From: an uncultured Bacteriovoracaceae bacterium
GTDB taxonomy: Bacteria > Bdellovibrionota > Bacteriovoracia > Bacteriovoracales > Bacteriovoracaceae
Assembly: GCA_938017795.1 (NCBI GenBank)
Contig: CALIJZ010000030.1
Coordinates: 1 to 64,000 of the forward strand
DNA: 64,000 bases
Reading direction: 5' to 3'
The position numbers and the translations under genes are program-made. Positions 55,476 through 62,519 of the stretch are shown piece after piece. The stretch's first letter is position 1, and every line of letters begins with the position of its first letter. The notes under the pieces are model-generated. The model did not search any database. It was given only the letters and a program-made list of their open reading frames with translations, and was not told the origin of the DNA.

Positions 55476-56870
55476 TTAGATAAGTTTTTTCTCTAGAATC
55501 TGATTTCTTAAAAGATCATTAAAGTCTTCACGTTTTCGAATCAGGTAATCTGAGTTTCCTTTAATCGCCACCTCAGCTGGAAGGTAAAAACTATTATATT
55601 CACTGGCCATGCTAAAACCATAAGCACCTGAATCTAACAAGGCAATAATATCTCCAACTTCAGGTTTAGGTAAGAGCCTGTCTTTAGTTAACATATCCCC
55701 AGTTTCACAAATGTTTCCAGCAACCTGAAACTTCTTTGTTTTAGACTTTCCATTTAAAATCCTAACTCTATGATAAGCTTCATACATAATTGGTCTAGCT
55801 AAATGATTAAATCCTGTATCAACATTAATAAAGTTTTTAATATCGGTCATCTTTACTGAATTCACCTTAGATAATAAAACTCCCGCTTCTGCCACAAGGT
55901 AGCGGCCGGGCTCAAGCCAAATCTCTGGAAGATTTTTAAATCCAGAAAATTTTCTCTTGAGAATAGGACAAACAATACTTGCTAAACGTTCAGGAGAAAA
56001 CCTTGCTTGGTTATCTCTATAGGGAATTCCAAGTCCTCCTCCCATATTGATAAAACTAATTTCATAGTTAAATCGTTTTTTAATCTCTAATGACACAGAG
56101 CTTAGAATCTGAGCATTTTTTTCGAAAGGTTTAGATTCTAAAATCTGGGAACCAATGTGACTATGAATCCCTTCAAAAGTCATAAACTTATTATCGATTG
56201 CAATTTTCGCTGCTTTATAGATATCTTCGTTTAAATACATTAACCCAAACTTTGTAAACTTATGACCTGTAGAGATATGTTTGTGAGTTGAAGTTGTTTC
56301 AACATCTGGATTGATCCTAAAACAAACTCTGACTGTTGTTTTTAATTTCCCAACGAGACTTTCTAGATTCTTCAACCCACTAAGAGAATCAATATTTATT
56401 AAAACTTTATTCTTAATTGCAAATCTTAGTTCTTGTTCTGACTTACTATTAGAAGTGAAGATTATATTCTCTCCTTTTTGACCAGCTTTCAAAGCAAAAC
56501 TCATCTCACCGATTGAGATACACTCAGCTCCAGCTCCTAGAGAAGTTAAATAAGAGATAATATTTAAATTTGTATTAGCCTTATAAGCGTAGTGAACTTT
56601 CACCTTAGGATAGTGTTTTTTAAAGCCATCCCTAAATTCTAAATATCTCGTTTTAATTAAATCCCAATCATAAAGATAAGTCGGACTTCCATACTTATTA
56701 GCAATTTTCCTTAAATATGAATGACTAAATCTTCCTACAGATGATTGATATGGATCTAATAAGATCTTTTTTTCTTTGGACGGTGCTGACTTTAGGTCTA
56801 TAGGCATAGAGAGCGCTAGGCCTCCAATTGTCGATATTTGAAAAAATTTTCTTCTATTAAAACTAGACAT
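55476..56870 (-). CDS. lysA: Diaminopimelate decarboxylase with Tat signal peptide
   Basis: 464 aa. Residues 1-29 form a twin-arginine signal (FNRRKFFQ, then ISTIGGLALSM). The rest is a fold type III PLP decarboxylase: PLP lysine K97 in VHYAYKANTN, GAGAECISIGE, HSHIGSQI, NMGGGLGIPY, EPGRYLVAEAG, substrate-site ICETGDMLTKDR and GAYGFSMAS. CETGD fits DAP decarboxylase (CESGD) rather than ornithine decarboxylase. It would act in the periplasm, converting meso-DAP to lysine. Its Shine-Dalgarno AGGAG lies inside a terminator hairpin. Another, cytoplasmic, LysA may exist elsewhere. Confidence 0.8.
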   Translation of the reverse strand: MSSFNRRKFFQISTIGGLALSMPIDLKSAPSKEKKILLDPYQSSVGRFSHSYLRKIANKYGSPTYLYDWDLIKTRYLEFRDGFKKHYPKVKVHYAYKANTNLNIISYLTSLGAGAECISIGEMSFALKAGQKGENIIFTSNSKSEQELRFAIKNKVLINIDSLSGLKNLESLVGKLKTTVRVCFRINPDVETTSTHKHISTGHKFTKFGLMYLNEDIYKAAKIAIDNKFMTFEGIHSHIGSQILESKPFEKNAQILSSVSLEIKKRFNYEISFINMGGGLGIPYRDNQARFSPERLASIVCPILKRKFSGFKNLPEIWLEPGRYLVAEAGVLLSKVNSVKMTDIKNFINVDTGFNHLARPIMYEAYHRVRILNGKSKTKKFQVAGNICETGDMLTKDRLLPKPEVGDIIALLDSGAYGFSMASEYNSFYLPAEVAIKGNSDYLIRKREDFNDLLRNQILEKKLI

Positions 56871-56897
56871 AAAAAAACTCCTGAAATTCAGGAGTTT
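56871..56897 (-). terminator. Terminator hairpin containing the lysA ribosome-binding site
   Basis: Minus strand: AAACTCCTGA, loop ATT, TCAGGAGTTT followed by T residues up to the lysA ATG. The 3' arm holds AGGAG at normal spacing (7-8 nt) from the ATG. It can end the transcript of the upstream Cys-rich gene and, in any read-through RNA, hide the lysA ribosome-binding site. Confidence 0.75.
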
Positions 56898-56933: not shown

Positions 56934-57854
56934 TTACCAATCCTCATCTTCATCAAGTGAGTAATCAGGGATTTGATCGGCTTCATCAACAATATTGCTT
57001 AAAGTAAAATCAGCATCCTCTTCAACACTTGAGATTCCTCTTGTTGACTCCTCTTCTGTTGAAGTAGCTCCAAAAGTATCTTCTTCGAAGTCTGATAATG
57101 ACTCTTCAGTATTCGTTGTCGGGTTTGTATCAGCACTTTCGTCAAACTCACCTGCTGACCAATCTGTATTGTCTTCTTCAGAAAACTCTTTTCCAAGGCT
57201 CTCTGTTGCAATTTGTCTCTTAGTTTTCTCTATTGTCTTGCTAGATTTAATTGGAGCATATTTCGTTCTGTATTTAATTTCTCCAGAATTTGTTCTATGT
57301 AAAACATAAAAACCTTGGTTCTTTACATCTCTTTCAGAGTGATGAGTTCCACAAACATTATTCACAACTTCTTCATTACAAACTGCTTGACCAGCACAAG
57401 TTAACTTTTTACCTTTAAATCTAAAACCAGCTCCACATAAGCAGCTTTGCCCAGGAGATAATTTATCTCCAGCTTCACAAGTTCCAATATTTGAATTACT
57501 CGCTACATATCTAAAGTTTTTACTTTTTACTTTTGAAGAAAAGTGATGAAATTCAGGATTATACTCTCCACTTAAGACAGCTACTTTCTGAGTAGAAGTA
57601 CTTAAATTTTTTCTTGATGTCCCTTTAGTATTACAAAGACTAGATACTAGTTTTTTTCCACATAAATTATCACCAGAGCAAGTTAGCCTTTTACCTTCAG
57701 CAACAGAATCAGCAGGACAATAACAAGTTCTTCCTGGTAGAAGACTTTTATCCGGACTACAAGTTTTTTTAACTTCATCAGCTGCCATACCAGTACTTAT
57801 ACCAAATATTGGTAATCCTAAGCATAGGTACATTAACACATTTAAAATTTTCAT
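56934..57854 (-). CDS. Secreted Cys-rich protein with tandem repeat and acidic tail
   Basis: 306 aa. A signal peptide (about 24 residues) is followed by two copies of a Cys-rich unit of about 45 residues with six Cys: KTCSPDKSLLPGRTCYCPAD...LTCSGDNLCGKKLVSSLC, and GTCEAGDKLSPGQSCLCGAG...LTCAGQAVCNEEVVNNVC. The last 100 residues are rich in Asp, Glu, Ser and Thr. The repeat may be a disulfide-stabilised adhesion or binding module. GGAGG precedes the ATG. A promoter-like and inverted-repeat region lies upstream. No family recognised. Confidence 0.65.
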   Translation of the reverse strand: MKILNVLMYLCLGLPIFGISTGMAADEVKKTCSPDKSLLPGRTCYCPADSVAEGKRLTCSGDNLCGKKLVSSLCNTKGTSRKNLSTSTQKVAVLSGEYNPEFHHFSSKVKSKNFRYVASNSNIGTCEAGDKLSPGQSCLCGAGFRFKGKKLTCAGQAVCNEEVVNNVCGTHHSERDVKNQGFYVLHRTNSGEIKYRTKYAPIKSSKTIEKTKRQIATESLGKEFSEEDNTDWSAGEFDESADTNPTTNTEESLSDFEEDTFGATSTEEESTRGISSVEEDADFTLSNIVDEADQIPDYSLDEDEDW

Positions 57855-60679: not shown

Positions 60680-60828
60680 GAGGGGTTCAAACCCTCAATT
60701 ATTTACAATGAATGAATCTAACAAAGAAATTGCCTGAGAGCAAAATATTTGACCTTAAGATCATTTAGTCCTAAATCTATTCCAGATAACATTGAATATT
60801 GTTAGTGTTATTCCAAAAAGGAATATTC

Positions 60829-61656
60829 TTGGATTTTTTAAAAAAAGAGCTCGATTATTTTTTTACTGCGGCCATTGAGAAAAGTTTAACAAAAGCAGCT
60901 GATAAACTAGATGTAGGTCAACCTCATTTAAGTAAGGTTATTTCAAAATTAGAGAAACAATATGATGAAAAGCTTTTTTATAGGTCAAAACAAGGAGTTA
61001 AATTAACTCCGGAAGGCAATATCTTATTTGCGAAGATTCAAAAGATTAAGCATGCTTTACTAGATAATGATTATGATGATTTAAGTGATGAATATAGAGG
61101 AAATTATTCTATTTCGCTTCATCCAGTTATTGCTCACTATACGCTTCCAAAGTTTCTAGGGAAAATCTTGTCTGAAAATCCAAAGCTCAATCTTAAGATT
61201 TCCTTTCAGCCGTCCAGGGAAGTCGTAAGAAAAGTAGTGGAAGGAGAACTAGATATCGGGATAGTCATTAACTCCGGTGATCATCCAGATTTAGTTATCA
61301 AAAAGATAGCAAAAGAGAAGTGCTATCTCTTTACGAAAAATAAAAAACAAACTGATATCTTATTTTATAACCCCGAAATGATTCATATTATTTCCAATTT
61401 AAAAAAAATAAAAAAACTCTCACATGTCAAAAAGATAGTCCCTATTTCTAATTATCACTTAATTGCAGAATTAGTTAGCGATAATAATGGTCTAGGACTT
61501 TTGCCTGAATATTTAGCTAAAGATGTTGGTCTTAATATATTTTATCAAAAATCTTTTTTAGAAGCAGATGTTTCACTAATTTATAGATACGAATTACAAA
61601 ACAATAAAACTTTTAAAAGTTTAGTTTCAGAGATAATAAACAAAGTACGTATCTGA
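60829..61656 (+). CDS. LysR-family transcriptional regulator
   Basis: 275 aa from a TTG at 60829, chosen because AAGGA stands 7 nt upstream; the frame could start at 60799. The winged helix-turn-helix is clear (DYFFTAAIEKSLTKAADKLDVGQPHLSKVISKLEKQYDEKLFYRSKQGVKLTPEG). The effector-binding half is LysR-like but diverged. It is translationally coupled (TGATG) to the EamA transporter gene, which is thus a possible target. The gap between this gene and the radical SAM gene contains no other gene. Confidence 0.85.
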   Translation: MDFLKKELDYFFTAAIEKSLTKAADKLDVGQPHLSKVISKLEKQYDEKLFYRSKQGVKLTPEGNILFAKIQKIKHALLDNDYDDLSDEYRGNYSISLHPVIAHYTLPKFLGKILSENPKLNLKISFQPSREVVRKVVEGELDIGIVINSGDHPDLVIKKIAKEKCYLFTKNKKQTDILFYNPEMIHIISNLKKIKKLSHVKKIVPISNYHLIAELVSDNNGLGLLPEYLAKDVGLNIFYQKSFLEADVSLIYRYELQNNKTFKSLVSEIINKVRI

Positions 61657-62519
61657 TGTATATAGCCTTAATGATCCTTGCAACATTTATCTGGGGACTA
61701 GGCTTTGTTGGAACTAGATGGACTTTTGAAGTGTATGATCCTTATTGGTCTCATGCCTGGAGGTATGTGATCGCTGGGTTGATAGTCTCACCTTATGTCT
61801 ATTTAAAGAGAAAGGAGATTCTTTGGGTTCCCGCTCTTTCAATATCAGTACTGCTTTTTGCAGGCATGCTGCTTCAAACTATAGGGATTAAATATACCAC
61901 TTTAGCAAAAAGTGGATTCTTAACAACCTTTTATGCAATCTTTACTCCTTTGTTTTTAGGGGTTTTATATAAACGAACATTTTCCTTAAAATATTGGTCA
62001 TTAGTTGCTCTTTCTATGTTTGGAATGGGGCTTTTATGTGAGTTGCAAATTGAAAACTTTAATTATGGAGATGTCTTTATTCTTATGAGTGCAGTCTTGT
62101 TCTCTCTACATATTATTATCATTGAAAAATATGCTAATGATTTTTCTCCCTTAGTTTTAAACGGAGTGCAGTCTTTAATAATGGGAGTGCTTGGGGTTAT
62201 GACAGCACTTATTTTCTCTGGGACTAGTTCGCCTATCTATTTTATTCCAGGTTCAGATAAGTTTAATTCCCAGGTTTTTCTAGGGTTTGTTATCTTGAGT
62301 ATCTTTTCGGCCTTAGTTGCTTTTAGTATTCAAATATTTGTTCAAAAACATATTAAAGCACATATTATTGGTGTTGTGTTTTTGATGGAAGCTATTTTTG
62401 CTGCTGGGCTTGGTTATTTATTTTTTAATGAAAATCTAAGTAGTATTCAAGTCGCAGGGGCTCTATTAATTTGTATTGCACTCATAATGCTCAATCACCT
62501 TAGTGATGAAATAAGTTAA
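61656..62519 (+). CDS. EamA-family (DMT superfamily) transporter
   Basis: 287 aa with ten membrane helices in two homologous halves (MILATFIWGLGFVGTR at the start and ALVAFSIQIFVQKHIKAHIIGVVFLMEAIFAAGLGYLFFNE in the second half). Members export metabolites, often amino acids, across the inner membrane. The substrate is not predictable. Coupled to and probably controlled by the LysR regulator. Confidence 0.85.
   Translation: MYIALMILATFIWGLGFVGTRWTFEVYDPYWSHAWRYVIAGLIVSPYVYLKRKEILWVPALSISVLLFAGMLLQTIGIKYTTLAKSGFLTTFYAIFTPLFLGVLYKRTFSLKYWSLVALSMFGMGLLCELQIENFNYGDVFILMSAVLFSLHIIIIEKYANDFSPLVLNGVQSLIMGVLGVMTALIFSGTSSPIYFIPGSDKFNSQVFLGFVILSIFSALVAFSIQIFVQKHIKAHIIGVVFLMEAIFAAGLGYLFFNENLSSIQVAGALLICIALIMLNHLSDEIS

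Follow-up and report, generated by a model that had tools for sequence, protein, structure and literature searches.

A diaminopimelate decarboxylase with a predicted twin-arginine leader in a Bacteriovoracaceae genus lacking detectable dapA, dapB and dapD

Known diaminopimelate (DAP) decarboxylases, LysA (TIGR01048; EC 4.1.1.20), are cytoplasmic fold type III PLP enzymes. Export of PLP-loaded enzymes by the twin-arginine (Tat) route is established for PvdN and PtaA of Pseudomonas (PMC6206403), pyoverdine-tailoring enzymes from different PLP enzyme classes. No description of an exported LysA was found in the literature searched, mainly freely accessible papers. The window analysed here, 64,000 nucleotides from an uncultured member of the Bacteriovoracaceae, encodes a LysA that shares with the known enzymes its fold, a full-length match above the equivalog cut-off and a complete active site. 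It differs from them in carrying a Tat-type leader, and in belonging to a lineage without detectable dapA, dapB or dapD. Like PvdN and PtaA, it is predicted to cross the membrane folded and cofactor-loaded via Tat and to act in the periplasm, although homology with them is not claimed.

The lysA gene and its neighbourhood

The lysA open reading frame (55476..56870, minus strand; 464 aa) is complete, with an ATG start and the sequence AGGAG 7 nt upstream. The initial annotation described a complete fold III decarboxylase with a CETGD substrate motif, and profile searches bear this out. The protein scores 437.6 bits against NCBIfam TIGR01048 (cut-off 297.9), with the decarboxylase domain (residues 52–457; 55500..56717, minus strand) spanning profile positions 15–416 of 417; PF02784 and PF00278 each match above their Pfam cut-offs, and the closest solved structure is the M. 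jannaschii DAPDC (1twi, E 3.6e-82). Residue roles for PLP and DAP binding were taken from the TmDAPDC study (PMC8277567). The PLP lysine, Lys97 (56580..56582, minus strand), is invariant in the alignment, and R323, R359 and E389, counterparts of TmDAPDC R249, R285 and E315, are all conserved, the last within the motif C388-E389-T-G-D392 (55695..55709, minus strand). Every position mapped for PLP and for either end of DAP is intact. By sequence, the window protein is a DAP decarboxylase with a complete active site and predicted activity. An AlphaFold2 model built from a 2-row alignment reached a pLDDT of 45 and was set aside.

The genome holds a single LysA. A second TIGR01048 match proved to be SpeA, which the arginine decarboxylase model scores at 805 bits. 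A second lysA without a signal had been suggested as something to look for; as the genome has only this one, the leader-bearing LysA is not a dedicated extra copy. Contamination as the source of the gene was rejected, since the same neighbours flank lysA in genus members.

A perfect, terminator-like hairpin, AAACTCCTGA-ATT-TCAGGAGTTT followed by a T tract (56875..56897, minus strand), was found by a terminator scan directly before the lysA ATG; it is kept in 4 of 4 genus members and encloses the Shine-Dalgarno sequence AGGAG. It may terminate transcription of the gene upstream or, as part of the 5’ UTR, control lysA translation. The product of the upstream gene (56934-57854), which adjoins lysA in genus members, is rich in Cys, is predicted to be secreted, matches no Pfam family and contains an acidic tail and two LLPGRTCYC-like repeats. 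Genes for an EamA transporter and a LysR-type regulator (60799-62519) are also found near lysA, and the other genus members likewise have an EamA-like gene in its vicinity; involvement in the transport of lysine or DAP is conceivable.

Conservation and distribution of the leader

The predicted twin-arginine leader comprises residues 1–31 (MSSFNRRKFFQISTIGGLALSMPIDLKSAPS; 56778..56870, minus strand) and lies ahead of the usual LysA start region, the TIGR01048 match beginning at residue 52. It consists of NRRKFFQ and a hydrophobic stretch whose 13-mer mean is 1.55. Four species of the genus were compared, and their leaders begin FNRRKFFQIS (G000, the window genome), INRRSFFEIS (G066), ISRRSFFEIS (G067) and FNRREFFQVS (G068), each followed by a GG-containing hydrophobic stretch. 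The codons of the twin arginines R6-R7 (56850..56855, minus strand) are invariant in all four and present in G074, from a second genus. A simple Tat test was applied to ORFs of at least 120 aa, requiring RR.[FGAVML][LITMVF] within the first 30 residues plus a hydrophobic 13-mer. Of the 167 such ORFs in the window and the genus loci sampled, the four LysA are the only ones to pass, so the leader is more than a chance resemblance, and the Tat motif and hydrophobic stretch noted ahead of the decarboxylase in the initial annotation are upheld.

Several features bear on whether this leader behaves as a signal peptide. First, the twin arginines, the FF pair and a GG.A pattern are conserved across proteins that are 63–86% identical, and in the second genus. 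Second, between G000 and G068 the nonsynonymous change per site is 0.13 in codons 1–25, 0.24 in codons 26–50 and 0.07 in the enzyme; on these few sites, the RR and hydrophobic part appears more constrained than the stretch behind it, as expected of signal peptides. Third, signal-peptidase sites judged by eye are AHA in G074 and ASA in G067 and are poor in G000, G066 and G068. The window protein offers A-P-S or K-S-A, neither of them textbook, so that cleavage of its leader is uncertain; its h-region is short. The sole alternative in-frame start before codon 60 is an ATG at codon 22, and a conserved cytoplasmic short form was rejected since this start exists in only 2 of the 4 species.

The G074 LysA is 63% identical over the core and has the leader TNRRQFM...DAHA (METNRRQFMQLGLAGGLSLTFLKDAHAGPKK). 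In that fragmented assembly the leader stands in another frame than the core, owing to an indel at an A run (L082:1670-2974 and upstream) that may be genuine or an assembly error, and the two frames were read separately, not joined. The five leader-bearing LysA (G000, G066, G067, G068 and G074) form one clade with support of 100/99, separate from the family's leaderless LysA, and descent of the clade from the latter was rejected, as it stands apart in the tree. About 70 other LysA N-termini from the class and phylum, including ones with long open frames upstream, contain no Tat-type motif in a plausible coding region; one RR, in L142, falls within an upstream open frame that lacks a start codon. 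A contig scan for relatives returned one only, from the same genus.

DAP and cell wall genes in the genus and family

None of the four genus members has a match to dapA, and 67 of 73 good genomes of the class have one. These members likewise lack matches to dapB and dapD; because the dapB model is weak in the class, dapA carries the weight of the absence argument. With genome completeness of 95, 98, 88 and 99%, we estimate the chance that dapA is missing from all four by incompleteness alone at about one in a million. The genus retains DapF, with both catalytic Cys and no leader, and a DAP-type MurE with the DNPR motif, which binds mDAP (PMC3829189). Since DapF and this MurE are kept where dapA, dapB and dapD are not found, DAP probably comes from outside. 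The MurE motif, the missing dap genes and the leader thus point to a genus predicted to build its wall with DAP, to be auxotrophic for it and to export its sole LysA, an enzyme that destroys DAP. The wall of Gram-negative prey contains meso-DAP. Retention of DapF in spite of this hints that LL-DAP, an intermediate of the prey cytoplasm, also enters.

Comparison within the family indicates that loss of DAP synthesis and export of LysA can occur apart from each other. G043 has the standard operon ask-dapB-dapA-dapD-lysA2-deacylase. G074 has that operon (dapA, dapB and dapD) plus its leader-bearing LysA, so that export and DAP loss do not fully coincide. G024 and G063 have no dapA or dapB match, and their LysA, encoded next to pyrE (L087:8779-10047 and L088:8674-9948), lacks a leader, a pattern that may reflect another way of becoming DAP-dependent within the family. 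The window genus combines both traits. The LysA2 of the dap operons in this class is a distant LysA relative (about 30% identity; 179–201 bits to TIGR01048) that has no leader, reads CTxxD in place of CExGD and is absent from the window genus. It occurs at L090:8861-10078 and L081:4527-5690, where it adjoins dapD and an AstE/AspA-type deacylase; loss of the residue responsible for binding the free distal amino group points to a substrate that is N-acylated.

The wall and division cluster differs as well. In five genomes from both leader-bearing genera (L126, L127, L128, L130 and L132), murC is missing at the ftsW-murB junction, where G043 has it (L129:11373-12746). The cluster is otherwise intact, with murD, murE, murF and murB in place, and the only MurC-like protein left is an Mpl-like ligase encoded elsewhere, at about 236 bits to the MurC model. 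That murC loss and the leader occur together could be due simply to the common ancestry of the two genera.

Site of action and source of DAP

The window genome encodes TatC (167.4 bits) and two TatA/B/E proteins above cut-off. The explanation we favour, and hold to be probable on balance, is that a DAP-auxotrophic lineage exports LysA through Tat and uses it in the periplasm to make L-lysine from free meso-DAP of foreign origin. The enzyme would fold and bind PLP in the cytoplasm, cross through TatA/TatC already loaded, and decarboxylate free meso-DAP of other cells; the L-lysine formed would enter by ordinary amino-acid transport. Placing LysA outside the cytoplasm would leave more of the scarce imported DAP to DapF and MurE, and so to the cell's own wall. 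The DAP would most likely stem from prey wall and prey cytoplasm. Predators of this phylum digest prey peptidoglycan (PMC3276566), and a predatory habit of the window genus is assumed from its family alone. The initial annotation had proposed that an exported LysA could convert DAP released from prey wall into lysine or modify free DAP in the bdelloplast, and that PLP loading before export would explain the use of Tat. The conversion of foreign DAP to lysine draws strong, if indirect, support from the absence of dapA, dapB and dapD matches alongside the retained DapF and DAP-type MurE, a pattern which that annotation had not noted. LysA identity, the intact active site, the Tat-type leader, the Tat genes and the single LysA can likewise be read from the sequence; export itself, PLP loading, activity, the prey source, the bdelloplast setting, lysine uptake and the sparing of DAP are predictions. 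Of the two findings that the annotation named together as refuting, a single lysA and a cytoplasmic protein, the first is observed. A further counterpoint comes from G024 and G063, which are poor in the DAP pathway and manage with a leaderless LysA; export is therefore not needed for using outside DAP.

The strongest alternative, which we consider rather unlikely, is that the leader does not function in export and LysA acts in the ordinary way on imported DAP, in the cytoplasm or held at the membrane's inner face. That the genome has no other LysA, the weak cleavage site and the leaderless LysA of related genera are all consistent with this, and DAP must get in anyway, as the leaderless DapF works in the cytoplasm. 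Against it stand the Tat genes and the RR, FF and GG.A pattern, which is preserved at 63–86% identity and in a second genus, and is missing as an extension from the leaderless LysA of other class members. It is improbable that an exported LysA salvages DAP from turnover of the cell's own wall. A periplasmic enzyme would reach its own muropeptides and an Mpl-like ligase is encoded, but a cell without DAP synthesis would be burning a building block it cannot make, and its own turnover would give no net lysine for growth. A substrate other than DAP, such as some other D-amino acid, exported or foreign, or a polyamine precursor, is very improbable: the family does vary in substrate, with DokD, FslC and NspC as recognised relatives, but the window protein falls far under the cut-offs for these three and far over that for LysA, and it conserves R323, R359 and E389, whose counterparts in TmDAPDC bind DAP at its distal end (PMC8277567). 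Least probable is that LysA converts peptidoglycan-bound DAP to lysine and so marks or protects a wall, for although wall-bound meso-DAP has a free carboxylate at its D-centre, on which LysA works (PMC8277567), the residues that recognise the L-end as a free amino acid (PMC8277567) are all conserved, that end is amide-bound in peptidoglycan, and the active site lies buried where the two subunits of the dimer meet.

Conversion of free foreign meso-DAP by an exported LysA allows a broader and more tentative scenario, to which we give somewhat less than even credence. A predatory lineage may have quit DAP synthesis, come to take foreign DAP for its wall and moved lysine synthesis outside, so that the two pathways no longer compete. 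Predators of the phylum have lost many amino-acid pathways, lysine excepted, and lysine is reported as the sole costly amino acid that Bdellovibrionota, unlike animals, still make (PMC11988736). The window genus looks like an exception to this rule, sustained by outside DAP. If this is true, decarboxylation of a wall amino acid would join the few known reactions of Tat-exported PLP enzymes, and the old question of whether predators reuse the DAP of prey walls becomes testable through one enzyme.
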